A program made the translations under genes and the position numbers. A stretch of DNA of 64,000 nt from positions 1 to 64,000 of the forward strand of contig CAJNDT010004890.1 in the NCBI GenBank assembly GCA_905221615.1, read 5' to 3'. The notes beneath the pieces are model-generated. The model was not told the DNA's origin and ran no database searches. It saw only the letters and a program-made list of their open reading frames with translations. This document shows, piece after piece, positions 32,841 to 56,554 of this stretch. The stretch comes from Symbiodinium sp. CCMP2592 (taxonomy: Eukaryota > Sar > Dinophyceae > Suessiales > Symbiodiniaceae). Each line of letters begins with the position of its first letter. The stretch's first letter is position 1.

Positions 32841-32841
32841 G

Positions 32842-34988: not shown

Positions 34989-37900
34989 GGCCGGCAAGCG
35001 ATGCCGTTGGCGGCTCTCTGCCGCCTGAAATCATGACCATGCTGCCAGGGTACTTCTTCTCCAACACGTACCTGCAGACCCTGGCCTGTGTTTCCAAAAC
35101 TATGCTGCTTGCATCCCGCGACCCTCAGCACTGGCGCGGAAGATGTCTTTCGTTGGCGGAAACTGAGTTTGCTGATCCTAGAGTTCTTCGCAACTTTGCA
35201 CACGCCTATGATGTTGCAAGCGTAGTCCGGGTCGATGAATCTAGGTCTTTTTCCAGCAAGCTTTTCGTTTCATTTGCTGATATCCGCGTTGCGCGTCCGT
35301 GTCTTAGAAACGGACATCGTGCGGGTGTCAAGTGTCAATTAATGCATATTTCTTGTGGGCATATACATATAATGTTTTTTTGCCTTCGCTTAGCCAAGGT
35401 CAGACAGCTAGCAATGTTCCTGATGTTTCCACCACGCTTGGCCTTGGACTGGGTTGCGCAGTCCTTGCACGACCCTGGGTATCCAAGGTGGTATGGCTTC
35501 CACTCAGAGACACCGCTGATGGGCGACGCCGTTTTCGAGCTGTGGTTACCGTGTCGAGCATCAGGCCTGTATGTAGGCGTTCGAGACTGGCACAATGGAC
35601 ATCGCACATGGCTCCGAGTTGACAACTTGTACCGTGAGGAGTCTACGATTTCTGTGGGAATGAATAACCAAACTTCGCAGCCTCGCCACAGCCACAACAA
35701 CATGCTTCTCCTACAGCCGCAGCGCACCCATCGCTTCTGTGTCCGCTGGAACCAAAGGGCCTTTGAGGTGGGCGTGGATGGCAAGTTGATCATTGCTGCC
35801 AACTTGCGAAATGGTGCCCAAGATATAGCGTCGCCTCTTGCGCAAGTTTTTGTTTGGGTTCATGTGCGGCCCGGTGGCTCTGAGGAAAGGACACGCGTCC
35901 GGCCTCTTCCATCGCCTATTCAAAGGAATGCACGTGTGACTTGTGCGCTTTGCCAACGCGAAGAGAGTGTTCTGCTGCCTTGCTGGGCAGCTTGTCCACT
36001 TTGTTCGACGTGGATCTGCAAGGAGCACACTGGGCATGAACCGCAGCGTCGCTGCCGCAAATGCATGATGCAGCTGCAGGATTACGTTGGTGGCGGTCCT
36101 GGCAGTGACAGCGCTTGTCTGGCCTCCACTATTTCTGAGTACGTAATATTTATGCGCATTCAGCACCTGCGAGATTTGATCTTAAGGAACATCCAGGAGA
36201 TGGTCACAGATCGGGCGCTGTGGTTCTCTGTGCCCGATCCTTTTGATTTAAGCATTGACGCTCGCACATGGATGCACTATGTGGATGCCGTCGAGTTTCA
36301 GGCTAGACAAGTGACGTCGCAAGTCGATATCTCCATCATGCAGCCGAAGCCGCGACAACACGCACTGCACACCTTATCTGATGCCGACCGAGCAGTGAAA
36401 CGGCTTGGTGCTTGGGCACGTTTGCTTATGTTGCTCATTCCGTATCGAGAAGTTGTATGTTTGCAGCAGATCTGGTCACCTACGGATTCGTTTATTTCAA
36501 AGAGAGCGTGGGAGTGGCATCTGTACGAAATCAGACAATCCGTTCTCCTGCTGGAGACGGAGACGCCGCAAACAGTTTCAGAGTTCTCCGGCACCTCACC
36601 AAGACGTTTTGATTTTCTGGCCGGGACATGCATGCCTACCCACGAGCAATGGCTGTTCCTTAGCGAACGCCGAGCTGCTGCCTTGCTGCGACGACAGTTA
36701 CACATCGGCATGGAGTCCCCCCATGATTTTTTTTGCTTGTGGGATCGAAGCCTGAGCCCATACTGCTGCCCAAGCTATACGGCTGGGGCGACGTCCATGA
36801 TCCGCTTGCCTCCTTTTGCGTGGGCAGACGTGAAGCCTCCTGTTCTTCCAAGTGCCGCAGACGAGGTCTTGAGTCGCCTCGAGTGCGTAGATGTGGAGTG
36901 TACTCTTCTTGCCCAACTGCATGGTCACCCGAGAGACAGACACGTGTCTTTCGTTCAGGAAACACACAGCTATTATGTGAGAGGAAACAAAATGCCTTTG
37001 TCCGTCACTGGCTTGGTACATTCCTTTGCTGACGAGTTTCGACCAGACGAAGCTATTCAGAAGATGGTTAATAGTGGTCGATGGCCTCGGCCTGAATACT
37101 CTCACCAGGTGGCCGACACCATTGTGCCGTTCTCCGCAGACGAGATCAAGGTGGCATGGTCGCGTAACGCGAAGGAGGCAGCGGCTAGGGGAACGTGGAT
37201 GCATTTGCAGATTGAAGTTTTGCTCAATGCCGGATACGTTCAAGAAGAATGCTGCGTCGAGCTTCAGTTATTCAAGCAATTTCTTCGGGAATATCCGCTG
37301 CCGCTGCTCGCGTTTCGAACGGAATGGTGCATTTATGGTGAGAATGAGCGGCTGGCAGGCTGCATCGACTTCGTGGCCAGGTGCTCTAAAGACGAAGTCA
37401 TTCTATTTGATTGGAAGAGAACCAAAGGCCTGTGCAACAAATACACCAATCGATGGGCAAACATGGCAGCGCCTGTAAGTCATCTGGAGGACTGTGCAGG
37501 CAATCACTACCGACTACAGCTGAATCTCTACAAGTACATCATCGAGAAGTACTACAACCTCAAAGTGCGTGCCATGCATGTTGTTTGCTGCCACCCAGAT
37601 CAAGAAGCAGAAGGCCCCTTTGTGGATAACGTCCCGGTCATGGACAAAGAAATTCACGAAATCTTGAAGGTGCACGTATCTCGTGTTGATTTTGTAGGAG
37701 GCAAGCAAGCTTTGCGCAGTGCTGCGGATATCATTGATGCCTGGCATCGTCTGCAGCACGGCATCCAAGTGGAGGAGGCTGTTGAAGTTGCTTTGGTTGA
37801 ACCAGTTCCTGTAAGAACTGCGGTCATGGTCAATGACACCTACGATTCAGACGAAGAGTCGGGTTTTTGGGGGCCGGCATTCACAGCCGACGACGATGCA

Positions 37901-38509
37901 CTTTCTATCAGCAGTGAGTCTGCAGGAGAATGGGTTTGCGATGCCACTGGGTGCTTCAGATGGGTCAGAGGTTCGCCGCAGCTGTTGGACCATGGCGAAG
38001 ATCAAGAAAGCGTGTTTTTCGTGAGCTCGATCCCGGAAAATGCAGCCACGGTGAATTGCGCCTACGATTCAGACGATGAGGTGGGGTTTTTGGAGCCGGC
38101 ATTCACAGCCGACAACGATGCACTTTTTGCCAGTAGTGAATCTGCAGGAGAATGGGTTTGTGACGCCAGTGGATGCTTTAGATGGGTCAGAAGTCCGCCT
38201 CAGCTGTCCTACCAGGATGTGGACGAGCTCGGAGGGTCCTTGCCCTCTGAGGCCCTGGAGCTTCTTCCAGGCTATTTTTTCTCCTACAATTTCCTAAAAC
38301 ACCTATCCTGGACATGCAGAGGCATGCTTCGCTCGGCGCGCAGTCGCGAGCATTGGCGAGGCCGCAGCTTGTCGCTGCGCGGCCTCGAATTTCTGGAAGC
38401 ATCGGTGTTGCGGGACCTCCATTTCGCATTAGAAGAGGCCAGAGTTGTGACTGTGAATGTGCCTTGGCTTGTCTGGCAAGAAGTTATATATAAGATGTTT
38501 TTGTTGTAA
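34901..38509 (+). CDS. F-box / jelly-roll / Zn / PD-(D/E)XK nuclease multidomain protein, left copy
   Basis: A 1,202-codon frame almost identical to 41,844-45,452; only Ala to Pro and His to Arg changes were noticed between the two. Domains in order are F-box-like, concanavalin/SPRY-like, Cys/His zinc module, PD-(D/E)XK nuclease, two acidic repeats of about 74 residues, and the start of a second F-box-like domain. The true exon probably begins after the AG at about 34,988-34,989 and contains an in-frame intron ending at 35,398 (…TAGCCAAG|GTCAGACAG). The frame's last codons are intronic, since coding resumes in another frame at 38,550. See the right copy for residue positions. This copy is probably an assembly duplicate. 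Confidence 0.7.
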   Translation: MCSGLVKTHLTVPCVCVCHCNYCVFAVLIRPASDAVGGSLPPEIMTMLPGYFFSNTYLQTLACVSKTMLLASRDPQHWRGRCLSLAETEFADPRVLRNFAHAYDVASVVRVDESRSFSSKLFVSFADIRVARPCLRNGHRAGVKCQLMHISCGHIHIMFFCLRLAKVRQLAMFLMFPPRLALDWVAQSLHDPGYPRWYGFHSETPLMGDAVFELWLPCRASGLYVGVRDWHNGHRTWLRVDNLYREESTISVGMNNQTSQPRHSHNNMLLLQPQRTHRFCVRWNQRAFEVGVDGKLIIAANLRNGAQDIASPLAQVFVWVHVRPGGSEERTRVRPLPSPIQRNARVTCALCQREESVLLPCWAACPLCSTWICKEHTGHEPQRRCRKCMMQLQDYVGGGPGSDSACLASTISEYVIFMRIQHLRDLILRNIQEMVTDRALWFSVPDPFDLSIDARTWMHYVDAVEFQARQVTSQVDISIMQPKPRQHALHTLSDADRAVKRLGAWARLLMLLIPYREVVCLQQIWSPTDSFISKRAWEWHLYEIRQSVLLLETETPQTVSEFSGTSPRRFDFLAGTCMPTHEQWLFLSERRAAALLRRQLHIGMESPHDFFCLWDRSLSPYCCPSYTAGATSMIRLPPFAWADVKPPVLPSAADEVLSRLECVDVECTLLAQLHGHPRDRHVSFVQETHSYYVRGNKMPLSVTGLVHSFADEFRPDEAIQKMVNSGRWPRPEYSHQVADTIVPFSADEIKVAWSRNAKEAAARGTWMHLQIEVLLNAGYVQEECCVELQLFKQFLREYPLPLLAFRTEWCIYGENERLAGCIDFVARCSKDEVILFDWKRTKGLCNKYTNRWANMAAPVSHLEDCAGNHYRLQLNLYKYIIEKYYNLKVRAMHVVCCHPDQEAEGPFVDNVPVMDKEIHEILKVHVSRVDFVGGKQALRSAADIIDAWHRLQHGIQVEEAVEVALVEPVPVRTAVMVNDTYDSDEESGFWGPAFTADDDALSISSESAGEWVCDATGCFRWVRGSPQLLDHGEDQESVFFVSSIPENAATVNCAYDSDDEVGFLEPAFTADNDALFASSESAGEWVCDASGCFRWVRSPPQLSYQDVDELGGSLPSEALELLPGYFFSYNFLKHLSWTCRGMLRSARSREHWRGRSLSLRGLEFLEASVLRDLHFALEEARVVTVNVPWLVWQEVIYKMFLL

Positions 38510-38549
38510 GTTTCCTTGGAGAGTCTGGCATATCATTGGCCTTTCCCAG

Positions 38550-39853
38550 GATCTGCAATTGGCTATGTTCCATTCGTTCCCGCCGCGAATTGCGCTGGAG
38601 TGGGATGTAGAGGTCACTTGCTCTCAGCAGCCCGACCGGGTTGTGACCGGATTCAAGTCTCGTGGTCCGCTGATGGGAGCGGCGATTTTCGATCTCCGAC
38701 TTCCCGCTTGTGCCATCGGCCTCTACATCGGCGTGCGTCAATGGCAGCACAGCGAACAGCGGGCATACTATTGCGTTGTCAACCCTTGGCGTTCGAATCC
38801 AGCGGTGTTCATCGGCCTCAATGACGAATCCCCGCAAGTGCATCCGCGCAGAAACACGTGCTTGCTGCAACCAGAACGAGTTCATCGATTTGGGGTCAGC
38901 TGGAGCCGGCGGCATTTCGAGTTTTCGATCGATGGCGTTGGCGTTTCTCGAGCCAGACTACATGAAGAATTTCCAGATGGACCGTCTTCATTGGCGCAGC
39001 TGTCCGTCTTGATGCACGTGCAGCCAGGCAGCCTTTGGGACGCTATGTATCTTCGTCCGATTGCATCGCCGATCGACTGGAACGCACAGATCAATTGTGC
39101 CATTTGCGCAAGAGACTGGGCCCTGCATCCTGGCAACTGGTGCGTTTGTCCGTTGTGTTCCACGTGGATTTGCAATGTTCACAAGCTGCGATCTCCCGCC
39201 CGTCGCTGTCCTGTGTGTCCAAACCAGCTCATGGACTATTTGGGCGGTGCATCTCAGGAGCCAGATGCAGACGCTTCACAAGCATCCTTCGAAGATGTCC
39301 AAAAGGAACTAGCTGTGACCATACCAACCTTCTTCCTTCCTGAGGATGCTGTCGTTTCAGCCAAAAGAAGACGCTTGATGCCTGGAGCGTCCACCTCTGG
39401 TCAAGAGTTCGATGATCTATTTGGTCTGGCGTCGAAGGCGTGCTCGTCCTCCTTGAGTTCATGTCCTATTGTAGACGAGCACCAACCAGTGGCATCCGTC
39501 CAACAAGACCTCTACAAGAAGTTCATGTCCGCTGTTGACCTGGCAGGTCGGAAGCCCTACGCCTTCGTGCCCAAAATGTTGAGGGTCACAGGTTTCAAAC
39601 GTTTTGAGACCAATAAAATCATGACATTTCGGAATGTCATGGAAGCAAACTTTAATTCCATTTACCGGCGCTGTCTGGTATGGAATCCCAAGCCGATCTT
39701 CGTCGAAGACACAGCCTTCGGCGCAGCTTACCCAGATCCGGAAGCCGATGGTAGTTTCAGAAAAGATTCTTCTCAGCGCAGTTTTCTGGGAAGTGGCCCT
39801 GCCATTGCCGCCGCGTTGGAACAACAGCATGGTTTTGAGTTTCATCCAGCTGT
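38550..39853 (+). CDS. Second F-box/jelly-roll/Zn module and helicase fragment, left copy, cut by gap
   Basis: The exon starts after TTTCCCAG at 38,542-38,549 (DLQLAMFHSFPPR…) and is homologous to the post-intron part of the first module (RQLAMFLMFPPR…). It carries the jelly-roll region, the CAIC...CPLC...CPVC zinc module, and a copy of the helicase C-terminal region, then runs into the N gap at 39,854. Any continuation of the frame through the Ns into 39,954-40,184 is artificial, since it would join unrelated exons. Confidence 0.65.
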
Positions 39854-39953
39854 NNNNNNNNNNNNNNNNNNNNNNNNNNNNNNNNNNNNNNNNNNNNNNN
39901 NNNNNNNNNNNNNNNNNNNNNNNNNNNNNNNNNNNNNNNNNNNNNNNNNNNNN
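39854..39953. other. Assembly gap, exactly 100 N
   Basis: A run of exactly 100 Ns, a common placeholder length for a gap of unknown size. It separates the two near-identical 6,843-bp copies. The left contig ends where the helicase-fragment insertion meets a 43-bp repeat (see 45,748-46,838), a plausible place for an assembler to stop. Confidence 1.
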
Positions 39954-39955
39954 GG

Positions 39956-40183
39956 CACTCTGGATTTTTACAGGCTCCACGATCCAAGGAGAACAGTGAT
40001 TCCGATCGACGCCCAAGAAATCCGTACACATGGTGAATATATTCTTGGAAAGGACCATCACTTCGTTGCCTTGCGCAGCAACAGCGAAGGCCTTTTTGTT
40101 AATGTGTCACACCGCCGACACCTTTGGCACGAAGTGGAAATCGCGGACTTGCTGCATGCCTCGCGACGAAATTACTTATGCTA
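39956..40183 (+). CDS. Cysteine-peptidase-like exon, right copy (5' end lost in gap)
   Basis: Encodes TLDFYRLHDP…GEYILGKDHHFVALR…, identical to the left copy's second exon, ending at the stop at 40,181-40,183. The Cys-bearing partner exon is not present on this side of the gap. The H-F-VAL motif is consistent with the His of a papain-fold peptidase but is not proof. Confidence 0.3.
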
Positions 40184-41843
40184 GAGAGATTGCCTTAACG
40201 GTATTTTCTAGTCTTGTAGCAACTTCGGCTCAGGTCATGGTCCATCAAGACCAGGAAACGGGCAAGTTTTTGCTCGACCCGATGAACATCGCCGCTGCCT
40301 TTCGAGTGGAGCGCCTGTGTACGGTTTCTTGGCTGCAGTGAAACTTATGACTACATCACATTCTCACATGCTCCATTGTACCCGAGGCAAGCGCAACAGG
40401 GGATGCAACAAGTGTCCGCGATGTGCTAGGCTCCGGCTGGGAGACGCCTGACTGCATGATGCTTCAATGTCATCGACTCTTTTGCGAGTGCGAGTAGATA
40501 AGACCTCTGTCGCGTCAAATTCAAAAAAAGCGTTCCATTGTTGATAGTACGGAAGCAGTCAGGCCATGGATGAGTGATATGCTGCACAGAGACCTTGTTC
40601 GCTACGGCGGCGAGATCCCGGACCTTCGTCCAGGCCGCACTCTTCCACCTGTTCTTTCCGAGCAGCAGAAGGACACCACGAGAGCGGTCGCTGCACCTTC
40701 GAAAATGTTAGACATTAGTGTTTGAACTGAAGGAAAGAGCTCTGCTTGCCGCAGAACGAGTGCGTTGCAAAGAAGTCGCGGAGCAGGCCATTGGGTTATG
40801 TAGTTTTCCATGCTCAGGCTACAATTCGTGTTGGGATCTTGCTGCGGACTGTTTGCGTGCGTTTTCTTTACATCTAGCTTGTTACATTGCTATTGACTGA
40901 GCACCCTTTTGTTCGAGACAGGGAGAAACGTCCAAATCAGCGCCCAGCGATCCTCCACCGAGAGATGATTCTGTAACTCGGCTCTGGACGGTGGCTTGCT
41001 TCTGTCCGAAAGTTCTGATATTTGGGTAACTCAGTTTATAAGTAGCAGTGACGTGGTGCTTGCAACAGTTCGATTGAATCCCGACCAAGGCCTGCCAGGC
41101 GAAGACAAAGTGTCCTACCGTGTTCGAGCCCCTTTTCTTTTTCGGTTCTGGCATTGAATATGCTATGGGGAAGGACCAACACGTGGTCATGCGACTTCAA
41201 TCAAGTCACATCCCAGCGCTCCCCTTCCTTTCCACGGCCTCGGAGCCAGAGGGCTGGTGGACACCGATTGTGATGCATCCGCACCATCCAGCCATCACCA
41301 AGCTGGGGTTTTCGCAAGGCACGGATGCGGTGCTACTTTTCAGGTCCGGCACGAGGGAAGCCTGGTGGGGACAAAACATCCGGGAAGCCTGGCAAGCTTA
41401 TCATGTCTCCGAAGCTTTATTCGACCGCCATGTCCACGGTGTGCGCCGAAGCTGCATATAAAGTATAATTTAGTCAGACATCGATGATCTCAGATGGTTC
41501 TCGGGTACAGAACGCGCTGAAAGGTGCGACCATGCGGAGAAGCCTTCCGTGAAGCGATGGAGAAGGCATGGATCTGAAAGCAAACACTGTGTTGGCGATG
41601 TAGTCTTTCATTAGAGCTCCGGGACTGAGGTATCGCTCCAACACAGACCGTGCTGTGGATGGTACTCCTGCAAGACGCTGGGCGAGGCTTTGCTTAGCAT
41701 GTGCGATGCTGTGTTATAAACATGCCTGCTTACCAAACATTGTCGACTCTTCACTTTTATGATTTTTCATCAGGCGCTTCGGTGAGACAACGCGGCACCT
41801 TGCATGCAATTGTCCATAGAGTGTTGCTTTGTAGTCTAGTATC

Positions 41844-44800
41844 ATGTGCTCGGGTTTGGTTAAGACACACTTGACTGTACCGTGTGTGTGTGTGTGCCAC
41901 TGTAACTATTGCGTGTTTGCGGTGCTGATCAGGCCGCCAAGCGATGCCGTTGGCGGCTCTCTGCCGCCTGAAATCATGACCATGCTGCCAGGGTACTTCT
42001 TCTCCAACACGTACCTGCAGACCCTGGCCTGTGTTTCCAAAACTATGCTGCTTGCATCCCGCGACCCTCAGCACTGGCGCGGAAGATGTCTTTCGTTGGC
42101 GGAAACTGAGTTTGCTGATCCTAGAGTTCTTCGCAACTTTGCACACGCCTATGATGTTGCAAGCGTAGTCCGGGTCGATGAATCTAGGTCTTTTTCCAGC
42201 AAGCTTTTCGTTTCATTTGCTGATATCCGCGTTGCGCGTCCGTGTCTTAGAAACGGACATCGTGCGGGTGTCAAGTGTCAATTAATGCATATTTCTTGTG
42301 GGCATATACATATAATGTTTTTTTGCCTTCGCTTAGCCAAGGTCAGACAGCTAGCAATGTTCCTGATGTTTCCACCACGCTTGGCCTTGGACTGGGTTGC
42401 GCAGTCCTTGCACGACCCTGGGTATCCAAGGTGGTATGGCTTCCACTCAGAGACACCGCTGATGGGCGACGCCGTTTTCGAGCTGTGGTTACCGTGTCGA
42501 GCATCAGGCCTGTATGTAGGCGTTCGAGACTGGCACAATGGACATCGCACATGGCTCCGAGTTGACAACTTGTACCGTGAGGAGTCTACGATTTCTGTGG
42601 GAATGAATAACCAAACTTCGCAGCCTCGCCACAGCCGCAACAACATGCTTCTCCTACAGCCGCAGCGCACCCATCGCTTCTGTGTCCGCTGGAACCAAAG
42701 GGCCTTTGAGGTGGGCGTGGATGGCAAGTTGATCATTGCTGCCAACTTGCGAAATGGTGCCCAAGATATAGCGTCGCCTCTTGCGCAAGTTTTTGTTTGG
42801 GTTCATGTGCGGCCCGGTGGCTCTGAGGAAAGGACACGCGTCCGGCCTCTTCCATCGCCTATTCAAAGGAATGCACGTGTGACTTGTGCGCTTTGCCAAC
42901 GCGAAGAGAGTGTTCTGCTGCCTTGCTGGGCAGCTTGTCCACTTTGTTCGACGTGGATCTGCAAGGAGCACACTGGGCATGAACCGCAGCGTCGCTGCCG
43001 CAAATGCATGATGCAGCTGCAGGATTACGTTGGTGGCGGTCCTGGCAGTGACAGCGCTTGTCTGGCCTCCACTATTTCTGAGTACGTAATATTTATGCGC
43101 ATTCAGCACCTGCGAGATTTGATCTTAAGGAACATCCAGGAGATGGTCACAGATCGGGCGCTGTGGTTCTCTGTGCCCGATCCTTTTGATTTAAGCATTG
43201 ACGCTCGCACATGGATGCACTATGTGGATGCCGTCGAGTTTCAGGCTAGACAAGTGACGTCGCAAGTCGATATCTCCATCATGCAGCCGAAGCCGCGACA
43301 ACACGCACTGCACACCTTATCTGATGCCGACCGAGCAGTGAAACGGCTTGGTGCTTGGGCACGTTTGCTTATGTTGCTCATTCCGTATCGAGAAGTTGTA
43401 TGTTTGCAGCAGATCTGGTCACCTACGGATTCGTTTATTTCAAAGAGAGCGTGGGAGTGGCATCTGTACGAAATCAGACAATCCGTTCTCCTGCTGGAGA
43501 CGGAGACGCCGCAAACAGTTTCAGAGTTCTCCGGCACCTCACCAAGACGTTTTGATTTTCTGGCCGGGACATGCATGCCTACCCACGAGCAATGGCTGTT
43601 CCTTAGCGAACGCCGAGCTGCTGCCTTGCTGCGACGACAGTTACACATCGGCATGGAGTCCCCCCATGATTTTTTTTGCTTGTGGGATCGAAGCCTGAGC
43701 CCATACTGCTGCCCAAGCTATACGGCTGGGGCGACGTCCATGATCCGCTTGCCTCCTTTTGCGTGGGCAGACGTGAAGCCTCCTGTTCTTCCAAGTGCCG
43801 CAGACGAGGTCTTGAGTCGCCTCGAGTGCGTAGATGTGGAGTGTACTCTTCTTGCCCAACTGCATGGTCACCCGAGAGACAGACACGTGTCTTTCGTTCA
43901 GGAAACACACAGCTATTATGTGAGAGGAAACAAAATGCCTTTGTCCGTCACTGGCTTGGTACATTCCTTTGCTGACGAGTTTCGACCAGACGAAGCTATT
44001 CAGAAGATGGTTAATAGTGGTCGATGGCCTCGGCCTGAATACTCTCACCAGGTGGCCGACACCATTGTGCCGTTCTCCGCAGACGAGATCAAGGTGGCAT
44101 GGTCGCGTAACGCGAAGGAGGCAGCGGCTAGGGGAACGTGGATGCATTTGCAGATTGAAGTTTTGCTCAATGCCGGATACGTTCAAGAAGAATGCTGCGT
44201 CGAGCTTCAGTTATTCAAGCAATTTCTTCGGGAATATCCGCTGCCGCTGCTCGCGTTTCGAACGGAATGGTGCATTTATGGTGAGAATGAGCGGCTGGCA
44301 GGCTGCATCGACTTCGTGGCCAGGTGCTCTAAAGACGAAGTCATTCTATTTGATTGGAAGAGAACCAAAGGCCTGTGCAACAAATACACCAATCGATGGG
44401 CAAACATGGCAGCGCCTGTAAGTCATCTGGAGGACTGTGCAGGCAATCACTACCGACTACAGCTGAATCTCTACAAGTACATCATCGAGAAGTACTACAA
44501 CCTCAAAGTGCGTGCCATGCATGTTGTTTGCTGCCACCCAGATCAAGAAGCAGAAGGCCCCTTTGTGGATAACGTCCCGGTCATGGACAAAGAAATTCAC
44601 GAAATCTTGAAGGTGCACGTATCTCGTGTTGATTTTGTAGGAGGCAAGCAAGCTTTGCGCAGTGCTGCGGATATCATTGATGCCTGGCATCGTCTGCAGC
44701 ACGGCATCCAAGTGGAGGAGGCTGTTGAAGTTGCTTTGGTTGAACCAGTTCCTGTAAGAACTGCGGTCATGGTCAATGACACCTACGATTCAGACGAAGA

Positions 44801-45452: not shown

Positions 45453-45492
45453 GTTTCCTTGGAGAGTCTGGCATATCATTGGCCTTTCCCAG

Positions 45493-47832
45493 GATCTGCA
45501 ATTGGCTATGTTCCATTCGTTCCCGCCGCGAATTGCGCTGGAGTGGGATGTAGAGGTCACTTGCTCTCAGCAGCCCGACCGGGTTGTGACCGGATTCAAG
45601 TCTCGTGGTCCGCTGATGGGAGCGGCGATTTTCGATCTCCGACTTCCCGCTTGTGCCATCGGCCTCTACATCGGCGTGCGTCAATGGCAGCACAGCGAAC
45701 AGCGGGCATACTATTGCGTTGTCAACCCTTGGCGTTCGAATCCAGCGGTGTTCATCGGCCTCAATGACGAATCCCCGCAAGTGCATCCGCGCAGAAACAC
45801 GTGCTTGCTGCAACCAGAACGAGTTCATCGATTTGGGGTCAGCTGGAGCCGGCGGCATTTCGAGTTTTCGATCGATGGCGTTGGCGTTTCTCGAGCCAGA
45901 CTACATGAAGAATTTCCAGATGGACCGTCTTCATTGGCGCAGCTGTCCGTCTTGATGCACGTGCAGCCAGGCAGCCTTTGGGACGCTATGTATCTTCGTC
46001 CGATTGCATCGCCGATCGACTGGAACGCACAGATCAATTGTGCCATTTGCGCAAGAGACTGGGCCCTGCATCCTGGCAACTGGTGCGTTTGTCCGTTGTG
46101 TTCCACGTGGATTTGCAATGTTCACAAGCTGCGATCTCCCGCCCGTCGCTGTCCTGTGTGTCCAAACCAGCTCATGGACTATTTGGGCGGTGCATCTCAG
46201 GAGCCAGATGCAGACGCTTCACAAGCATCCTTCGAAGATGTCCAAAAGGAACTAGCTGTGACCATACCAACCTTCTTCCTTCCTGAGGATGCTGTCGTTT
46301 CAGCCAAAAGAAGACGCTTGATGCCTGGAGCGTCCACCTCTGGTCAAGAGTTCGATGATCTATTTGGTCTGGCGTCGAAGGCGTGCTCGTCCTCCTTGAG
46401 TTCATGTCCTATTGTAGACGAGCACCAACCAGTGGCATCCGTCCAACAAGACCTCTACAAGAAGTTCATGTCCGCTGTTGACCTGGCAGGTCGGAAGCCC
46501 TACGCCTTCGTGACCAAAATGTTGAGGGTCACGGGTTTCAAACGTTTTGAGACCAATAAAATCATGACATTTCGGAATGTCATGGAAGCAAACTTTAATT
46601 CCATTTACCGGCGCTGTCTGGTATGGAATCCCAAGCCGATCTTCGTCGAAGACACAGCCTTCGGCGCAGCTTACCCAGATCCGGAAGCCGATGGTAGTTT
46701 CAGAAAAGATTCTTCTCAGCGCAGTTTTCTGGGAAGTGGCCCTGCCATTGCCGCCGCGTTGGAACAACAGCATGGTTTTGAGTTTCATCCAGCTGTGTTC
46801 ATCGGCCTCAATGACGAATCCCCGCAAGTGCATCCGCAGCAGCCGACCCGCGTCTGTTCGCGCTGCCCAAGCCCGCTGCTGGAATACGTTGGAGGCAGCA
46901 GGAGAGCTGACGACGGTGACTCGCAGTCGTCCTTCAATGCTCGCCTGGATGCAGAACTAGCGGAGATGGACGTGGCAGAGTCACCCGAGGACAGGGCAGA
47001 GCAGAAGCGTGAAACGTTGGCGCTGGCACTGACTGAGAATGCTTCGGAAGATCAGAGTGATCTCGCCTTGGCGAGTGTTGCGGAAGCTGCAACCGGCCTG
47101 CCTGCGGAGGCTATCGGTTTTGCCAAAAGAAGGCGCCTCATGCCTGGAGCCTCCACCTCTAGCCAAGAATTTCAGGATTTATTCGATCTCACAGTCGCGG
47201 CGTGTTCGTCGTCCTTGACTGCATGTCCTACTGTAGACGAGCACCAACCAGTGGCGTCCGTCAGAGAGCAGGCCAAGAAACAAATTGCATATGTTCGTCT
47301 CAGGCAGTCGACATGGCCGGAGGACATGGTGCGTTTGACGGCTGCTGCTATCAACGTGTATAGAACTCGCCTCACTGACATTTTCGTTCGAGATTTTGTT
47401 GGTCTCGTTTGGATTATTGAAGGCGACAGGTACATTCGTGCCCATCGTGGTGTATGTTTCTTATACCACAGCGACGGCTCTTTCGATCCCTACAGCGGCG
47501 TTCCGCCGGAATCCACTTTTTACAGGCTGAAGAAAACTCTCCTGAGATTAGAGGGCTTATTTCGACTCATGTCGCCAGCCACAGAGCGGTCGGACTCTGC
47601 AATCGTCCGGGAGGTCGCCAGAGTGGTGTCAGTCTACAACAGCGTCGCCGAGTTTATGGCACTTTGCGAAGACACAGCCGTGATGGCAGATACCTTCGGG
47701 ACGCGCCGCAAGTCACGCCCCGAAGAAGAAGGAAATCCTTCCCCTCACGCAGGTTGGCCCGAAAAAACAGCTTTCATGCTTTCGAAAGTTTTGGCGCCGC
47801 TGCAGAAAGATTTGCTGGAAGAGCGACTCTAG
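45493..47832 (+). CDS. Second jelly-roll/Zn module, helicase-fragment insertion, D5_N-like region
   Basis: The open frame starts at 45,400, but splicing after TTTCCCAG puts the exon start at 45,493 (DLQLAMF…). It encodes a concanavalin/SPRY-like segment, then a zinc module CAIC...CPLC...CPVC (from about codon 214 of the frame). A KRRRLMPGAST basic patch follows, then about 113 residues (46,444-46,783) nearly the same as the SF3 helicase C-terminal half. A partial repeat of the jelly-roll/Zn end and KRRRLMPGAST patch comes next. The final segment (…GLVWIIEGDRYIRAHRG…, …LKKTLLRLEGLFRL…) resembles the D5_N region preceding SF3 helicases. The frame stops at 47,830-47,832, probably inside an intron, as the helicase resumes at about 47,934. 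The embedded helicase piece lacks Walker A, so it cannot be a working ATPase. Confidence 0.6.
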   Translation, partial: DLQLAMFHSFPPRIALEWDVEVTCSQQPDRVVTGFKSRGPLMGAAIFDLRLPACAIGLYIGVRQWQHSEQRAYYCVVNPWRSNPAVFIGLNDESPQVHPRRNTCLLQPERVHRFGVSWSRRHFEFSIDGVGVSRARLHEEFPDGPSSLAQLSVLMHVQPGSLWDAMYLRPIASPIDWNAQINCAICARDWALHPGNWCVCPLCSTWICNVHKLRSPARRCPVCPNQLMDYLGGASQEPDADASQASFEDVQKELAVTIPTFFLPEDAVVSAKRRRLMPGASTSGQEFDDLFGLASKACSSSLSSCPIVDEHQPVASVQQDLYKKFMSAVDLAGRKPYAFVTKMLRVTGFKRFETNKIMTFRNVMEANFNSIYRRCLVWNPKPIFVEDTAFGAAYPDPEADGSFRKDSSQRSFLGSGPAIAAALEQQHGFEFHPAVFIGLNDESPQVHPQQPTRVCSRCPSPLLEYVGGSRRADDGDSQSSFNARLDAELAEMDVAESPEDRAEQKRETLALALTENASEDQSDLALASVAEAATGLPAEAIGFAKRRRLMPGASTSSQEFQDLFDLTVAACSSSLTACPTVDEHQPVASVREQAKKQIAYVRLRQSTWPEDMVRLTAAAINVYRTRLTDIFVRDFVGLVWIIEGDRYIRAHRGVCFLYHSDGSFDPYSGVPPESTFYRLKKTLLRLEGLFRLMSPATERSDSAIVREVARVVSVYNSVAEFMALCEDTAVMADTFGTRRKSRPEEEGNPSPHAGWPEKTAFMLSKVLAPLQKDLLEERL
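45748..46838 (+). repeat. 43-bp direct repeat flanking the helicase-fragment insertion
   Basis: A block beginning GTGTTCATCGGCCTCAATGA occurs at 45,748-45,790 and again from 46,796 to 46,838. The second copy lies immediately after the embedded helicase fragment. The KRRRLMPGAST...VDEHQPVASV stretch is also repeated (about 46,304-46,442 and 47,125-47,262). The pattern indicates internal duplication of the module, with the helicase piece landing at the junction. Confidence 0.85.
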
Positions 47833-47933
47833 ATGTCAGGAGTTGAAGCACGTTGTATCAAGTTTTTGTATTTCGTAGTGTTGCTAGCTCAGTGAGACGT
47901 CACCTCTGTTTTAACATCTGCGAGCCAGCTGAG

Positions 47934-48924
47934 GACGACTACTTCACTTCGTCATCCAATGGTGCGATTCGCCTTCGAACAGAGCAAGTGGATGTGCCTA
48001 CCAGGACATTTCGGTGCTTTATGATGTCACACCAGAAGAACACGTGCAGCTTGTGAAGCCGTCACCGAAGAACAACATCTACGTTAGAATTCCCCATGCT
48101 CTACAAGCGTCATTGCCAGATCCTGTATTGAAGAATGCCAGGTCTAGACTTCAGAAATTTTTGAAGGAGACCTTCTGGAGCAATCAAGAGTATTACAAGG
48201 CGACTCTCGCTGCAATCGCCCTTGCAAAACGTGGAGAAAATATCGATCGCTGCTTCATTGGTGAATCCTCAGGCGGCACTGGTCAATCGCTGTTCAGCAG
48301 CCATTTGGCGGCGGTGTACGGGCATAACCACGCGTTTATTGATCCGAATCTCTTTCATAATGAGGAGGAAATGAGAAAGCAACTTGAGCAATTTGCTCAT
48401 TGTTGGATAATTACAGCGCAGGAGGCTCCGGAAACCCATCGGCATTTTCAACAAGATCTCTACAAGAAGTTTATGTCCGCTGATGACTTGGCAGGTAGGA
48501 AACCGTACGGCTTTGTGACGAAGATGATGCGCGTCACCGGCTTCAAACGGTTTGAAACCAACAAGATCATGACTTTCCGCAACGTCATGGAAACCAATTT
48601 CAATTCCATTTACCGGCGCTGTCTCGTGTGGAACCCCAAGCCGATCTTCGTCGAAAACACCGACTTCGGTGCAGCGTACCCGGACCCGGAAGCCGATGGT
48701 ATTTTTGTCAAAGATCCTTCTCTGCGTAATTTTCTGGAGAGTGGCCCTGCCATTGCAGCCGCATTGGAACAACAACATGGTTTCGAGTCGCATTACTCCC
48801 GGCAGGCATGTTTTCAGATGATTGAAGACTATGCCTTGAGCGGTCTCACCGAAAGAAAGATGAGAGCCGCTTGTGGGCTGCGTGCTCCGGAGGACCGATA
48901 TCTCAATACACAGCATGCACTGGA
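47934..48924 (+). CDS. Superfamily-3 (D5/polinton-type) helicase, Walker A lysine replaced
   Basis: The open frame is best from 48,014 and ends at 49,066. The exon likely starts after …GAG at 47,933 (RLLHFVIQWCD…) and ends before an intron whose acceptor is TTGTGCAG at 49,130-49,137. Codons counted from 48,014: GESSGGTGQS at 83-92 occupies the Walker A position; HCWIITAQEAPE fits motif B; DLYKKFMSADDLAGRK fits B'; FETNKIMTF with Asn183 fits motif C; IYRRC supplies candidate arginine fingers. The tail (AAYPDPEADGIF, …LTERKMRAACGL) is typical of D5-type proteins. SF3 helicases unwind replication origins of viruses and elements. The expected Walker A Lys is Gln91, which should abolish or weaken ATP hydrolysis. 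It is probably translated with the polymerase that follows. Confidence 0.72.
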
Positions 48925-49137
48925 TCCGCTAGATAACTACTTTCTTTGTTCGTTCGTTGTTCCTATCTCTATCTCTCTCTCTCTCTCTCTTTCTCCATTT
49001 CTCTCTGTATCTGTTTCCTTTCTATGTTTTCTTTTTTATGTTTTCTTCATACAGATTGTTCTTTAAGTTTTGCGATGTGCGGATTTGCACAATGCCCATG
49101 ATTCCTGGCACTATGTTGTCGTGATTTGCTTGTGCAG
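48925..49137 (+). other. Probable intron between helicase and polymerase exons
   Basis: The stretch is T/C-rich (a CT microsatellite at about 48,966-48,990), contains in-frame stops, and ends TTGCTTGTGCAG followed by GAG, a good acceptor with the AG|G context known in dinoflagellates. The donor is not a clear GT site; GCTAGATAAC near 48,930 could supply a GC or GA donor, both documented in dinoflagellate introns. Confidence 0.5.
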
Positions 49138-51783
49138 GAGCCTACAGTGGAGAAGCAGCAGAACAATCTTGTGGCGATTCTGAAGCAGAACGATGAGGAC
49201 GAGAAGACCAATATCCCGCAGACACGGCTTGATAAGGCAAATGCTGCAGCCGTGAAACATTTCCTCGAAATCAAAAAGCCAACGGTGAGCAAGCTTTGGT
49301 GGCAACGCTTTTCCAAAGCTAAGCTCAGTGCTGACAAAGAAGCATTCGACGACCTGGTCAAGGAAAGCATTTTTCTTCCAGTGGATGCAAAACAGGATGC
49401 AGAGAACTACATTCCCACCATACCTTGTCAGAAGGCGCTGGAAGATTTATTCGTTGTCGGCTACGATTCCAACACAACAGTGCTGCGTGAACGTTTGAAT
49501 GCCAGAAAGCTTTGGGATGCAGTACATAGTAATCCTGCCCGAACGGCCAATGCGGAGCTTCTACAGCATTTTTTTTCGCAAGTGCTGGCAAGGTTGGACT
49601 CTGGTCGGGGTCGTCGATCTACACAACTCATGGAATCTTTGTTGCGCTGGCGGAGCCTGTCGAAGAAGCTACGCAAGCATGAAGAATGTGCTCACGGATT
49701 ATTGGAAGCGCTGGAAACGAAACTTTCCCATGCAAGTCAGCAACCTCCTGATGAGCGGGCTTCGGCAATATCGCCACAAGAGAAGCCTGTTCGTCGAGCT
49801 GTTAGGAAGAAGTCTTCGGCTGCACACGTTGAACAATCATTAGCAGGCCAAGCGGCAGCTTCCTCTGCAAGTGGTGCTCGAAGTGGAAATCCTTTCGCTG
49901 GAACCGAGGAAGACCGCTTCGTCAGCTACGATGTCACGTACAAATACAAATTGGCAGACGTGCGTACGCGCAGATACGCCAGTTTCCATTCTGCGCAGAA
50001 TTTGGGCAAAGCCTGGCAAACAATTGCTTTGGATCAAACGGTAGACCTGGACATCGAGAACTGCTCCTTCACGTTGCTGTTACAGATTTTAGACAAATTG
50101 AAACCCAACCACGAGTGCTGGTCAGCAGTCAGGGAGACATTGTCCCTTTGTTCGTCAGAAAGAAACAAAGTCATTGAAGAAAAGCTGAAGCTGCCGTTGT
50201 CAGAAGGAAAGCATCTTTTACAGAAAGTATTCAACGGAGGCACACCTCCGGAAGAACTTGCCAAGAATTTGTTCATCGAGGACCTACAGCGAGCAAGTCT
50301 TTTCTGCCGCTGGGTCGCTGCAACGATGCTGAAGAACACTGCTTGGCGTGACTTGCTGCAAATGAAAGACAGACCAGACATGTCGGTGTTGACATACTTT
50401 TGGAACATCGCGGAAGATCTGGCTGTTGAGTCCTGGATCCGGAAGGTGGAACCGCTGCAGAGCAAGCACATGTCATTGCATTTCGATGGCATCAGGGTGG
50501 ATCGCGACATCGCGCAGCCAGATGTAGAAACTTTCTGCAGGAGTTGCAGCGACACGATTTTCAAGGACACTGGCCTGGCTGTTCGTATTCGTATGAAACA
50601 GCACTATACCTGCCATGCCCTGTTGCAGCAGCTGGAGAACAGAAAACCAGTCGAGTGTCCTGAATGTCTTCGCGCAGCGGGAAACTGTATATTGGCGGCC
50701 CTACATCATCTTGGTTTTCCAGAACAGGCGTCTACTATGGCATTGATGACAGAGGGTCCAGAACACATGTTTTTTCAGCGACGCCGCCAGAGAACATATG
50801 CGCAGGTTGCCGAGAAAGCGAACATTAAAGTGTTTCCTCGACTACCAACTACTGCTCTAGAATCAGGCCAGAAGATTTTGCTTCATATGGCCACCGAAGG
50901 GAACCCGCACTGTGTTGCTTTGGAAGTTTGTTCAGGCAACGAAGTACGTGTGACTGACCTGACTGTCAGCTACACTTTTTCCGTTGTGGATTTGGCACGC
51001 ATGCTATCGGAAGCAACGGATCGCAAATACATGATCTTCTTTCACCTGAACCAGAAACCTGAGGATCTTGACAGAGATGCACAGGGCAGCGAGTATGACC
51101 TTCTGATGGAAACTCTAGCAGGCGGAGACTCCGACGATGAGTTCGTTCAGGACCTAGCTTTGCCTATTGTGGAGGAGAAGGAGCAAGATGAAGACATGTT
51201 GGAGGATGACGAGAGCGTAACGAGAGTGGGTGACAGACTTCTAGGATTTCTTCGTGACGAAGTTGCTGCTTTTCTGAACAAGAAACCTGCGCAAGTTGCT
51301 GATGAGGTTCGAAAGAATGGGAAGGCATGGTGTCCCTTTTGTCCGCTTCGGTGCTGGGACAAGACTCGACACGGTCGTGTTACGGCACATGTGCGAGAAT
51401 ACCATTCGGCAAGGAAGCAATTCGTGGCCAGTGGCACGAAGCAACTGAAGGTTATCATCGCACTCCACGACGATGATCAGTGTCGGCGGCAGCCTGCCGG
51501 AAATTACTTGCGCCGCAGTGCTACTCTGCTGTCCCAATCCCTGGATGATACAATTTCGACGCAGCACGTGCTCCTGGACAAGAAGATAAGACTTGTTTTG
51601 ACGCAGGATGGACCGCAATACTGGTCTCTGCAGGCTGTGCAGCGAGGAGAATTGCGTCGCGTGCGCAATCTGTACTATACGCGGCCATTCGCTCAACTTT
51701 GTTTTCGAGAAGTATTGATGTGCAGTGCCAAGGCAAGAAACACACACGCGCGCACACACACACACACGAACAAGTCCTGGTAG
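49138..51783 (+). CDS. TV-Pol-like DNA polymerase with cysteine-peptidase-like domain and C2H2 finger
   Basis: The frame opens at 49,126; the exon starts after the acceptor at 49,137 (EPTVEKQQNN…). Codons counted from 49,126: about 1-260 is charged and helical with a basic patch. About 262-490 has the pattern of the polymerase family related to family-A DNA polymerases and T7 RNA polymerase (TV-Pol). This comprises motif A VDLDIENCSF (Asp307/Asp309), a Lys-rich SEGKHLLQKVFNGG segment in the motif B position, and motif C LHFDGIRV (Asp454). About 510-620 reads GNCILAALHHLG (Cys521), PHCVALEV (His595), VTDLTV (Asp611), a possible papain-fold catalytic triad. About 736-760 is a C2H2 finger (C736, C739, H755, H760) after an acidic stretch. 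The end (…YYTRPFAQLCFREVL…) flows into the transposase exons, and the last codons (HARTHTHTNKSW) are intronic microsatellite. The polymerase call rests on motif spacing; the peptidase call is weaker. Confidence 0.58.
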   Translation, partial: EPTVEKQQNNLVAILKQNDEDEKTNIPQTRLDKANAAAVKHFLEIKKPTVSKLWWQRFSKAKLSADKEAFDDLVKESIFLPVDAKQDAENYIPTIPCQKALEDLFVVGYDSNTTVLRERLNARKLWDAVHSNPARTANAELLQHFFSQVLARLDSGRGRRSTQLMESLLRWRSLSKKLRKHEECAHGLLEALETKLSHASQQPPDERASAISPQEKPVRRAVRKKSSAAHVEQSLAGQAAASSASGARSGNPFAGTEEDRFVSYDVTYKYKLADVRTRRYASFHSAQNLGKAWQTIALDQTVDLDIENCSFTLLLQILDKLKPNHECWSAVRETLSLCSSERNKVIEEKLKLPLSEGKHLLQKVFNGGTPPEELAKNLFIEDLQRASLFCRWVAATMLKNTAWRDLLQMKDRPDMSVLTYFWNIAEDLAVESWIRKVEPLQSKHMSLHFDGIRVDRDIAQPDVETFCRSCSDTIFKDTGLAVRIRMKQHYTCHALLQQLENRKPVECPECLRAAGNCILAALHHLGFPEQASTMALMTEGPEHMFFQRRRQRTYAQVAEKANIKVFPRLPTTALESGQKILLHMATEGNPHCVALEVCSGNEVRVTDLTVSYTFSVVDLARMLSEATDRKYMIFFHLNQKPEDLDRDAQGSEYDLLMETLAGGDSDDEFVQDLALPIVEEKEQDEDMLEDDESVTRVGDRLLGFLRDEVAAFLNKKPAQVADEVRKNGKAWCPFCPLRCWDKTRHGRVTAHVREYHSARKQFVASGTKQLKVIIALHDDDQCRRQPAGNYLRRSATLLSQSLDDTISTQHVLLDKKIRLVLTQDGPQYWSLQAVQRGELRRVRNLYYTRPFAQLCFREVLMCSAKARNTHARTHTHTNKSW

Positions 51784-51890
51784 CCGTTTGCGGTGTAAAC
51801 CCATGATCGTTTAGACCGTAGGACGTTGCCTGTTCGTAAGTGGCTGCATGCGATGCAAACCAGTGAGTAAGAAAGACATCACCTCTGCAG
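51735..51890 (+). other. Probable intron with CA microsatellite
   Basis: It contains CACACACGCGCGCACACACA, in-frame stops and an acceptor ACCTCTGCAG at 51,881-51,890. It separates the polymerase frame from the first transposase exon. Confidence 0.5.
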
Positions 51891-52208
51891 GTCTATGCTC
51901 TTCATGCTCGACTCTTGGCAATCTTTCCGGGTGCGACAAGCAGCCTTTTGCCGCGCCACGCAAATCACTGGTGGCCAATGATCGAAGACATCTTCCTGTC
52001 GGACCGCGTCCGCAGCTTCGAACGGAAGCTCGAAACCGAGCTGGTGCAGCATCAAGAATTCGAAGTCATCAGCATGGATGCGACACTACGTTGCTGCTTG
52101 CCCGTTATGGGACAGGCACATCCGCGAGCAAGCAGAGAAGTGAAATCACAAGCAGTGTTTCATGGAGACAGCGCGCTGACTCGAGCCTCTTGGCTGCATG
52201 AAACATAA
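51891..52208 (+). CDS. DDE transposase, first catalytic exon
   Basis: Open from the acceptor at 51,890: VYALHARLLAIFPGATS…, …HANHWWPMIEDIFLSDRV…, then …EFEVISMDATLRCCL…, where the Asp codon at 52,077-52,079 sits at the end of a predicted beta strand. This is the usual place of the first catalytic Asp of RNase-H-fold (DDE) transposases. The frame stops at 52,208, probably already inside an intron. The upstream exon's C2H2 finger and following region may be the N-terminus of the same transposase. Confidence 0.5.
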   Translation, partial: VYALHARLLAIFPGATSSLLPRHANHWWPMIEDIFLSDRVRSFERKLETELVQHQEFEVISMDATLRCCLPVMGQAHPRASREVKSQAVFHGDSALTRASWLHET

Positions 52209-52263
52209 TATAAGTTGGCTGCTGTTCTGTTGCACCAGTGAGCAATGAGGTAGTTACATGCAG

Positions 52264-53377
52264 AGGGCGCACCAATGCAGTGCTCATGTTGGCTGCGACC
52301 ACGACGGATGAAACAGATATCTTGGTGAAGGCTATGGCCGAGAAATTACCAACAGCTGGGCTTCAACAAGTGCGATGCATGAGTGTGGACAATCCTTCCG
52401 CCAAATTGTGGAAAGGCTTGCGTTGCATTTGCCCAAACCTGCAGATTCTGTGCCTCGACCCTGTACATCTCGCGATGACATGCGAGTATGCATCTAGTCG
52501 GAAGCGTACGGCAATGTCAAGGACCTTGCGTGCAATATTGCAGAAGTTATCTGTGCACAGCTCACACTGCACCGAAAACACGTGGGGCACTTTTTTCCGA
52601 GGCGAGAACTGCAAGCCTCTAACACATGCGGAGGAAAGGGCTCGTTTACAAATTGAGGATCGCAGCATGCCGCTAAGGAAAGCTGCAGCTATCCTCGACA
52701 ATTTGAATGCGTCCGTTCCCTTTTTCGAACGGTCTGAGTGGTCCCTGTCGCTGGCTGCTTTGGCAGCTGTGTATCGGCAAGACATGGACCGTGTGGTGCC
52801 GGGCCCGAACCGGAAGGTATACCAACTTCTTCATTCGGCTGCCGCAGCAGCACGAACGGAGTGGTATTTTAACAACCTTCGTGCTCGACACATGATTGCT
52901 ACCAGCAGATTGAGTCTGCTCCCTGTCGGCACAACATCGAATGAATCACTACATCACGAAATCAACAATTTTTTCAGAGAAACACAAAAAATCCACAAGA
53001 CGACCTTGTCGCTGAAGCTCAAGATTCTACAGCTTTCCAAACAAATGACACACAATGCTGCGCTGTACCACGAAACTACTCGGCAGATGGCCGAAGCAGA
53101 AGTTCTAGCTCGCACATCGTCCAGAGAGATGTGGAGCTCAGAGCAGTGGCAAGCATGGTGCGACGAGCTCCAGGATGACGCTCGGATCAAGAAGGCGTCT
53201 TTGAAATTGCATCCCCAGAGAGAGGACGAGCGTGCCACGGTTCGAGCAGGGGTTCTGAAGAGACCGGCAGTTAATGTAGCTGATGCTTCACCAAAGAGAC
53301 GGCGAACGCCGCACACTTTGGAACGGCAGGATGGCCTTCGTCGTGCAGGTGTTCGCGGCCGAACACCGGCTACGTAA
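52264..53377 (+). CDS. DDE transposase, second catalytic exon and C-terminus
   Basis: The exon begins after TTACATGCAG (52,254-52,263): GRTNAVLMLAAT…, then CMSVDNPSAKLW (Asp at 52,388) for the second catalytic residue, CLDPVHLAM (a D-x2-H pair), and PVGTTSNESLHHEINNFF (Glu at 52,943) for the third. The E within a G-T-T-S-N-E context recalls MULE-like transposases, but I cannot assign a superfamily. The C-terminus is basic (SPKRRRTPHTLERQ…), suiting a nuclear localisation signal. A perfect donor-like GTAAGT follows Ala-Thr at 53,373, so one more exon may exist. Its role would be cutting and joining element ends. Confidence 0.55.
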
Positions 53378-54582: not shown

Positions 54583-55146
54583 ATGCTTTGCCAGTCGAAG
54601 TGGACGGAGACCCTGTCTGCCGCGAACTTTACTGCTGCACTGCCCTCGGATTGGTTCGGGCGGCAGCTGCTTGCAATCACGCCGGAGCTTTTCGACGAGG
54701 CCAATGTAAAAACAATCTGCAAGGAAATTGTGTTTTCGTGTTCTTCGCAGGTGCTGTCACTGCGAGACAACACCGAGACGCTATTGCATCATAACATTGG
54801 CTTAGCCATTGCACGTTTGCAAGGCCGGGGACGCATTGTCACAAATATTTGCCAGTTGTTTTTTACACTGCTTCCAGGCCTCGAGAAGCCCGCTGAGAGG
54901 GATTTGAATAGTATCGACCCGCACGAGCGGCTTACTGGCACCGTGGTCAGGGTAGACCCCTTGAAAAACGGTAAGCTCGTGCGGTTAGAGTATTCATTGG
55001 GTGGTCCTGTGCGTCTAATCACTGCTTGGGTAAAAAACGACGAGGACCATCGGATTAACTCCCAACGCAAGTTTTGCCTGGAGTGGCGCTGGGACTATAA
55101 GGATAGATCCTGGGCTGCGACGGCGAAGTACCTCAGCGAATGTTGA
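54583..55146 (+). CDS. Unrecognised terminal exon
   Basis: A 187-codon frame ending at 55,146 with good protein character. An acceptor-like TTCTTCGCAG at 54,741-54,750 suggests the exon may actually start near 54,751 (VLSLRDNTETLLHHN…). The last 80 residues (…LTGTVVRVDPLKNGKLVRLEYS…, …FCLEWRWDYKDRSW…) look like a small beta-rich fold. No motif names a family. It is on the same strand as the transposase and 1.2 kb downstream, so it may be the end of the same gene or a separate small gene. Confidence 0.4.
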   Translation: MLCQSKWTETLSAANFTAALPSDWFGRQLLAITPELFDEANVKTICKEIVFSCSSQVLSLRDNTETLLHHNIGLAIARLQGRGRIVTNICQLFFTLLPGLEKPAERDLNSIDPHERLTGTVVRVDPLKNGKLVRLEYSLGGPVRLITAWVKNDEDHRINSQRKFCLEWRWDYKDRSWAATAKYLSEC

Positions 55147-55344
55147 GCTACAGTTCCTTTGGTGATTTTTTCTATGACGTTGTCAATTACGCTCGCGCTC
55201 TCCGTGGTGATCAAAAGGGAAAGCGTCGGAATTGATGGTGCTGTGGGAAACCTTTTCAAAGAATAGAAACTCCTTAGAACTGCTGTTTCAAAATTTCTTA
55301 AGTACGACAACCAAGAGCACGGGATAGTTACGTACTAGCGTCCG

Positions 55345-56460: not shown

Positions 56461-56554
56461 GCCAAGCTTCTTTACTTTCAACCCTCAGCCCATCACTGCA
56501 GAATTTGCGGAGGGACATGTGTGTTCGCTTGTCAGAACATGCGTGCGTGTGCGT

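Follow-up and report, generated by a model that had tools for sequence, protein, structure and literature searches.

A large transposon family in a dinoflagellate genome which joins a candidate replication module to a DDE-type transposase

The DNA under study (the window) is the first 64 kb, i.e., 64,000 nucleotides, of a contig (C4874) of the dinoflagellate Symbiodinium sp. CCMP2592. Relatives were sought in the same 1.098-Gb genome, to which all contig labels (C147, C5046, C802, C97 etc.) and the loci L066, L067 and L020 belong. The window holds an element which spans positions 23661 to 59953 from one terminal inverted repeat (TIR) to the other, 36,293 bp as assembled and about 29.35 kb without an assembly artefact and a gap. 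The original prediction had read a plus-strand tract of nuclease, SF3-type, polymerase-like, peptidase-like, C2H2 and DDE motifs at 34989-53377. These motifs are indeed present; the part 34989-39853, which repeats the DNA of 41932-46796 in a self-comparison of the window, had been counted twice, and the limits were drawn too narrowly, because TIRs and target-site duplications (TSDs) define the larger unit 23661-59953. Its ends are:

23653-23660, no strand: left 8-bp TSD TAAGGGTA, identical to 59954-59961; duplications of 8 bp also in three other copies
23661-23690, plus strand: left TIR TGTACGTAGGACCTTTAGGTTCTATTTGGC; homology starts here in the C147, C5046 and C802 copies, too
59924-59953, minus strand: right TIR (minus-strand TGTGGCATGGACCTTTAGGGTCTATTTGGC); end of homology common to four copies
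59954-59961, no strand: right 8-bp TSD TAAGGGTA, matching the left duplication

The element starts with TGTACGTAGGACCTTTAGG and finishes with the complement of TGTGGCATGGACCTTTAGG. The TIR arms are identical in 24 of 30 bases and in 21 of 22 in their inner part. A comparison of four copies demonstrates that the boundaries are exact and common to the window, C147, C5046 and C802. In all four the 8-bp target duplications are identical at both ends, and flanks and duplications differ from copy to copy: TAAGGGTA in the window, TAGACCTA in C147, TATATATA in C5046, which lies inside a TA microsatellite and is weak when taken alone, and TAGGGGTC in C802. The copies measure 30,010 bp (C5046), 19,636 bp (C147) and 35,134 bp (C802). 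C147 arose by an internal deletion of 31781-49057, comprising the F-box modules, the nuclease and SF3; its ends are kept. Aligned stretches outside of repeat arrays are 99.77-99.93% identical between copies, therefore movement was recent. Clearly, this element, subfamily A, is mobile. Such a footprint calls for a transposase, and the predicted DDE protein would be the agent. Thus, the proposal of a large multicopy DNA transposon is strongly supported by TIRs, target duplications and copies; TIRs with duplications had been proposed as a check around 28-55 kb and were found at 23661-59953 and in copies in the same genome.

The TIRs are not confined to these four copies. With up to 3 mismatches the TIR pattern gave 202 + 188 = 390 matches in the genome, the reversed pattern 0 + 1 = 1. 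From the first 100 places listed ten further convergent pairs were drawn, most of them 4-12 kb long. Eight of the ten have identical 8-bp flanks, the other two agree in 7 of 8 bases, and a cross-pair control gave 2 of 90. Two pairs reside in TA microsatellites; outside of these the flanks are identical in six of eight and agree in 7 of 8 bases in the remaining two. Two short elements were read, C97:156228-164562 (8.3 kb) and C169:1296212-1300375 (4.2 kb). Both have the same TIRs, and none of the domains of the large element was matched in either. C97 carries the same AT-rich subterminal array as the window element without its domains, as expected of non-autonomous passengers. Among the matches listed, six of 25 coding copies have a right-end TIR in the correct orientation within 15 kb downstream, with about 0.002 expected for each; the six include copies at 100, 63, 55 and 30% identity. 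Ends with duplications were established for subfamily A and for a 24.5-kb element on C291 (TAAGGGTC); in two further groups one element end is suggested. A TIR variant, TGTGGCAAGGACCTTTATGTACTATTTGAC, is seen at C301:63311-67667, C563, C569 and C1079 and apparently marks a further subfamily. At C953:95063-97448 a right-end TIR variant lies about 1 kb past a divergent transposase match, and C802:700924 is similar.

Could the copies be an unrelated host gene family which was spread by segmental or assembly duplication? The assembly does contain false repeats, and the window has one of them:

33011-39853, no strand: falsely duplicated contig end, the same as 39954-46796; the F-box, nuclease and second F-box exons which it contains are artefacts of this copying
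39854-39953, no strand: assembly gap of 100 N, adjoining both duplicate copies

The two stretches of 6,843 bp are 99.94% identical with 4 mismatches. Copy 1 stops exactly at the gap and copy 2 begins exactly after it. C5046 presents the same locus uninterrupted: the counterpart of 39853/46796 is directly followed by that of 47072, and the duplication is absent. The simplest reading is that overlapping contig ends were left unmerged, and because of this nuclease and F-box exons at 34.9-39.8 kb enter the count twice. Two tandem gene copies are ruled out by the contig overlap across the gap and by the uninterrupted C5046 locus. In C802 the nuclease region is repeated in a similar manner (5.4 kb), and together with the false duplication in the window this means that gene counts from this assembly need care. 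Coding copies also occur as same-strand pairs 12-18 kb apart (C169:998130 and 1015960; C4779:81279 and 93854), either a tandem arrangement or an assembly repeat. The 6.8-kb duplication in the window and the two nuclease copies 5.4 kb apart in C802 are what can be said for a duplicated host gene family. The copies, however, sit in different flanks and have exact ends and individual target duplications. This refutes the explanation for subfamily A, and overall we consider it most improbable.

The coding core of the element follows downstream of the gap on the plus strand:

43872-44696, plus strand: PD-(D/E)XK exonuclease domain; phrog_298 at 6.7e-17, upstream of the transposase at no fewer than 68 of 86 places
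47933-48898, plus strand: SF3/D5-like ATPase domain with Walker A GESSGGTGQS (Lys replaced by Gln); VapE-like Pfam match at 1.7e-4, family alignment
49792-50664, plus strand: TV-Pol-like polymerase domain; invariant motifs in 10 sequences, weak similarity to a candidate phage TV-Pol
50662-51171, plus strand: papain/OTU-like Cys-His peptidase-like domain; GNC and two His invariant in 9 alignment rows, no profile match
51172-51744, plus strand: C2H2 finger and N-terminal part of the transposase, in the open frame 49102-51783, the same frame as the polymerase-like domain
51867-52178, plus strand: transposase exon with the first Asp (SMDAT), from the relatives' alignment
52247-53356, plus strand: transposase exon with the second Asp, LDPVHLA and the Glu (GTTSNE), from the relatives' alignment and the genome search

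The 893-aa frame which unites the polymerase-like domain and the transposase N-terminus is matched in the genome by at least 53 rows with identities of 100-30%, a lower bound for the family in which some copies give two rows. Of the match rows of the polymerase-C2H2 frame 50 of 53 are without an internal stop. The order SF3, polymerase-like, peptidase-like, C2H2 and DDE is the same in all 11 loci displayed, as far as each one reaches; these were picked from 30 to represent subfamilies. The same domain order was thus recovered in divergent subfamilies of the window's own genome, a check which had been proposed for other dinoflagellate genomes. A transposase search returned 101 rows at 86 places. 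In 68 or more of these 86 cases the transposase is preceded, at most 16 kb upstream and in the same orientation, by a nuclease match, the tally using most nuclease rows among the matches listed. The control on the wrong side gave at least 3 of 86, each beside a neighboring element. Among the 18 places without an upstream nuclease is the deletion copy C147. In 52 pairwise comparisons pS was 0.66-0.98, i.e., near saturation, and pN only 0.09-0.48, therefore the family is under purifying selection, which is strongest on SF3.

Is the product a single polypeptide? L066 and L067, in which the polymerase part is 33% identical to the window, have the nuclease, SF3, polymerase-like domain and C2H2 finger in one intact frame of 1,769 and 1,784 aa, respectively, and match listings place other frames of 1,757-1,784 aa similarly. 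The idea of one polyprotein is supported this far; the transposase is in both loci a separate, overlapping frame downstream. An enumeration of splice sites produced several GA/GC-AG options for three of the four junctions and no option for the SF3-polymerase junction within the stretch tried. The dinoflagellate spliced-leader 21-mer, used in what we take to be its sequence, has 217 + 212 matches in the genome and its reversed control 0 + 0, which marks the host as a dinoflagellate. A divergent group with frames of about 1470-1520 aa has linked nuclease (39%) and transposase (30%) matches, e.g., C102:1374712-1382296 and C802:905909-913493; it is absent from the matches listed for the polymerase query.

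The identity of the PD-(D/E)XK nuclease is secure, as judged from phrog_298 matches of 6.7e-17, 1.3e-16 and 2.8e-16 with frames of the window and of relatives. A nuclease relative in frames of 365-403 aa scores equally on many contigs (e.g., C2272:3164, C3840:2835) and possibly belongs to another repeat family. Two modules flank the nuclease:

41922-43028, plus strand: F-box-like / concanavalin-like / Cys-rich module 1; homologues in other subfamilies close to the nuclease and in its orientation on one contig, e.g., C131, C291, C646, C1024 and C4523
45165-46182, plus strand: F-box / concanavalin-like / Cys-rich module 2, 42-47% to module 1

On module 1 Pfam gave F-box-like at 0.031 and Glyco_hydro_16 at 0.025, both below the cut-off; the Cys-rich part is our own reading. 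In many subfamilies such modules closely precede or follow the nuclease, and because of this we count them as part of the element; a few module matches at other places are fragmentary and contain stops. What had been described as F-box/jelly-roll is this module, and no capsid was matched in 21 stretches of the window with Pfam. Outside of subfamily A a 121-aa exon at 41078 recurs only on C935 and, as a weak match, on C596 and is, therefore, not part of the core. Further features of the element are:

23731-25032, no strand: AT-rich subterminal repeat array, made up of repeat families, also present in the 8.3-kb element C97
46444-46743, plus strand: partial internal duplicate of the SF3 exon, 84% to 48449-48748, inside an 810-aa frame (45400-47832)
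47080-47829, plus strand: conserved region N-terminal to SF3, matched in other subfamilies

Within the element the gene is flanked to the left and right by tandem and subterminal repeat arrays (23731-25032, 26729-28692, 55267-56463 and 57217-57524).

The transposase is predicted from the DDE-type motifs SxDAT, [VTA]D[NS]PS, LDxxHLA and GT[TSA]SNE, which are conserved in all displayed rows that cover them; there is no profile match. KDZ, MULE and hAT transposases were considered: no such profile matched at E<=5 with the transposase frames of three relatives (Pfam, which presumably holds a KDZ transposase profile), a negative that is to be read with the HMMER filters in mind, which drop most matches above E 0.1. 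For the C2H2 finger zf-C2H2_4 scored 0.0037 on L066, below cut-off. The name papain/OTU-like for the fold at 50662-51171 is our presumption. By tblastn the peptidase part was matched in L067 only; the frames of both L066 and L067 show the GNC and PHC residues.

The polymerase-like domain has the family-invariant motifs DLDIxNC, GKx7NGGxP and HFDGxR. R[RK]Y and a Gln ahead of the palm, DLDIxNC, K-x7-NG and HFDG form a motif set which we read as PolA-like. According to the available part of Iyer et al. (2008), TV-Pol is defined by a hairpin Arg, two palm Asp and RxxxK in the fingers, and the cyanophage Ma-LMM01 is named as a carrier (PMC2579912). The Asp residues of DLDI and HFDG are invariant in 10 of 10 sequences and would be equivalent to the two palm Asp. 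R[RK]Y is present in all eight alignment rows which cover the position and would represent the hairpin Arg. Of the fingers motif the Lys (in GKx7NGG) is found in 10 of 10 sequences, the Arg four residues earlier in one (L014). From its motifs we assigned MAP_030 of Ma-LMM01 as the candidate phage TV-Pol. With the family profile MAP_030 ranks first among 64 phage frames in a weak match (E 0.57). Pairwise, L066 (z 4.0) and L067 (z 4.6) also place it first of 64, and 0 and 1 of 300 shuffles, respectively, were as good. With a good measure of confidence we regard the domain at 49792-50664 as TV-Pol-like.

The SF3-like domain matched VapE-like Pfam profiles at 1.7e-4 and 7.2e-5 in two proteins, phrog_1156 at 1.2e-4 and TIGR01613 at 0.0012, the Pfam and NCBIfam scores being below the curated cut-offs. 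Its Walker A reads GES[SA]GGTGQS or, in a divergent pair, GISPGGVGQS. Profile searches, which the original prediction had named as its check, thus confirmed PD-(D/E)XK, supported SF3 mostly below cut-off, and gave nothing for the polymerase-like domain and the transposase. In the PDB, the 893-aa frame and the alignments of polymerase, transposase and SF3 returned nothing or irrelevant enzymes at E 0.48 and 2.2. In prokaryote genomes the SF3 alignment had 209 pattern matches, none of which was confirmed as a relative.

Taken together, we favor, with moderate confidence, a dinoflagellate lineage of DDE DNA transposons of about 29-30 kb with a built-in replication module, autonomous by gene content and proposed to copy itself. 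The C2H2-DDE transposase would act on the TIRs of about 30 bp (TGT...ACA) and insert with an 8-bp stagger, often at TAnnnnTA sites. Most likely it excises or nicks the element. The nuclease and the SF3 motor would prepare DNA ends or single strands, and the TV-Pol-like prim-pol would copy the element, the copy then being reinserted. The Cys-His peptidase probably separates the replication and transposase parts, and the F-box module may recruit a host ubiquitin ligase; both are guesses from domain content. Because nuclease, SF3 and polymerase are kept in line with the transposase, self-copying during or after excision appears as the economical answer, as has been proposed for Polintons and casposons. 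Replication by its own enzymes is what we infer from the predicted proteins.

A number of observations weigh against this proposal. The main difficulty for a self-copying mechanism is the lost Walker-A Lys. All 11 rows in which the motif is covered have Gln in its place (including near-identical copies; eight subfamilies by our grouping), so a helicase activity is doubtful; the SF3-like ATPase may have another mode of action, serve as a loader or play a purely structural role. Whole L066 and L067 frames had no SF3 match in Pfam, PHROGs and NCBIfam scans, and these libraries name neither the polymerase-like domain nor the transposase. In hhalign MAP_030 again ranks first of 64 against the family, with a probability of 4.1% and a runner-up at 3.9%, and in the pairwise comparison only two of ten members stand out, the other eight having z -1.0 to 1.9. 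The polymerase is C-terminal to SF3, the reverse of virophages as portrayed in the available part of the source cited below. For 19 of 25 coding copies no right-end TIR is among the matches listed, a few of them lying so close to the end of a contig that it could be out of reach; divergence of the TIRs or bounds of another kind would explain the absence. In the distant C1024/C2635 family the right end runs into tandem repeats, and comparing copies did not locate the boundary. Lastly, all copies, subfamilies and counts stem from one genome.

Some of these points would suit a conventional, non-replicative DDE transposon which captured a replicon module long ago, uses it now for end protection, gap repair or escape from silencing, and increases in copies by cut-and-paste. 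The Gln in every covered Walker A speaks against a working helicase, TIRs, 8-bp TSDs and DDE features suffice for cut-and-paste, the two short elements of 4.2 and 8.3 kb have TIRs without the domains, and the C147 deletion copy keeps its ends without nuclease and SF3. Yet even very divergent subfamilies maintain the module with its order and open frames, and selection on it is purifying. We consider a non-replicative element rather unlikely, and prefer a transposon that copies itself. If this is true, some dinoflagellate jumping genes may copy their own DNA. The element bears on the question of how selfish replicons become transposons, and the family may explain some of the repeats which have remained unclassified in dinoflagellate genomes. 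A separate puzzle is why, under strong purifying selection, the Walker-A Lys is missing from each of the rows that reach it.

An endogenised polinton-like virus or a virophage relative, which had also been suggested, would account for a polymerase next to SF3. Virophages have TVpol N-terminal to SF3 (PMC3671162, available part), and dinoflagellate genomes are reported to hold many capsid genes of the polinton-like virus type (PMC10120064, available part). The element resembles the virophage TV-Pol/D5 proteins in combining a polymerase-like domain with an SF3-type ATPase and in a similar pattern of R-Y...Q, palm Asp and K...NG. It differs in the reversed domain order, in the lost Walker-A Lys and in a polymerase that is continuous with the transposase N-terminus. 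No capsid family was matched among the 21 window stretches, where an intron-split capsid gene or a capsid that Pfam does not know would escape, and the flanking parts 23661-33000 and 53400-59953 have no capsid-sized frame, the longest open frame being 216 aa. No packaging ATPase was matched in the profile scans made, and no PolB when five window frames were run against Pfam and PHROGs, and two window frames and four of relatives against NCBIfam. Four scans of IMG/VR viral contigs identified no relative: two were without a pattern match, and of the 511 and 26 pattern matches in the other two none was confirmed. L067 matched 27 phage records, and the 12 listed are all in the nuclease part. Moreover, the 8-bp TSD goes with a C2H2-DDE-type transposase and not with an rve integrase or a tyrosine recombinase. 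A viral origin of this kind is, thus, improbable.

An earlier description of such an element was not found in the open-access literature, with Repbase and most subscription journals outside the search, and the lineage is probably new as far as the searches made can tell. Zisupton/Kyakuja/Dileera (KDZ) transposons share the 8-bp TSD and the possession of accessory genes; the available part of their description has no polymerase/SF3 module (PMC12730594), and L066, L067 and L020 had no KDZ match in Pfam. Teratorn, according to the accessible portion of the source, is a herpesvirus genome with a piggyBac-like transposase and about 90 other genes (PMC6431247). It likewise unites a transposase with replication genes, yet its proteins, as described there, are unrelated to those of the dinoflagellate element. 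Casposons are prokaryotic transposons with TIRs and a polymerase gene; unlike the element they employ a Cas1 integrase and PolB (PMC4046053, available part). Polintons/Mavericks have a protein-primed PolB, a retroviral-like integrase, capsid genes and a packaging ATPase (PMC4046053, PMC6431247, available parts). None of these four was matched in the dinoflagellate element. Polintons and the element alike are large, TIR-bounded eukaryotic DNA elements which combine an integrating DDE enzyme with a polymerase of their own. The TSD is 8 bp in the element and 5-6 bp in Polintons. The element probably works like Polintons but is not a Polinton. We give an even chance to a more far-reaching view, i.e., that it represents a third, separate lineage of self-synthesizing transposons in which a TV-Pol-like prim-pol, an SF3 motor and a PD-(D/E)XK nuclease continue into a DDE transposase and would physically couple replication with integration, and which arose independently of Polintons and casposons and radiated in dinoflagellates.

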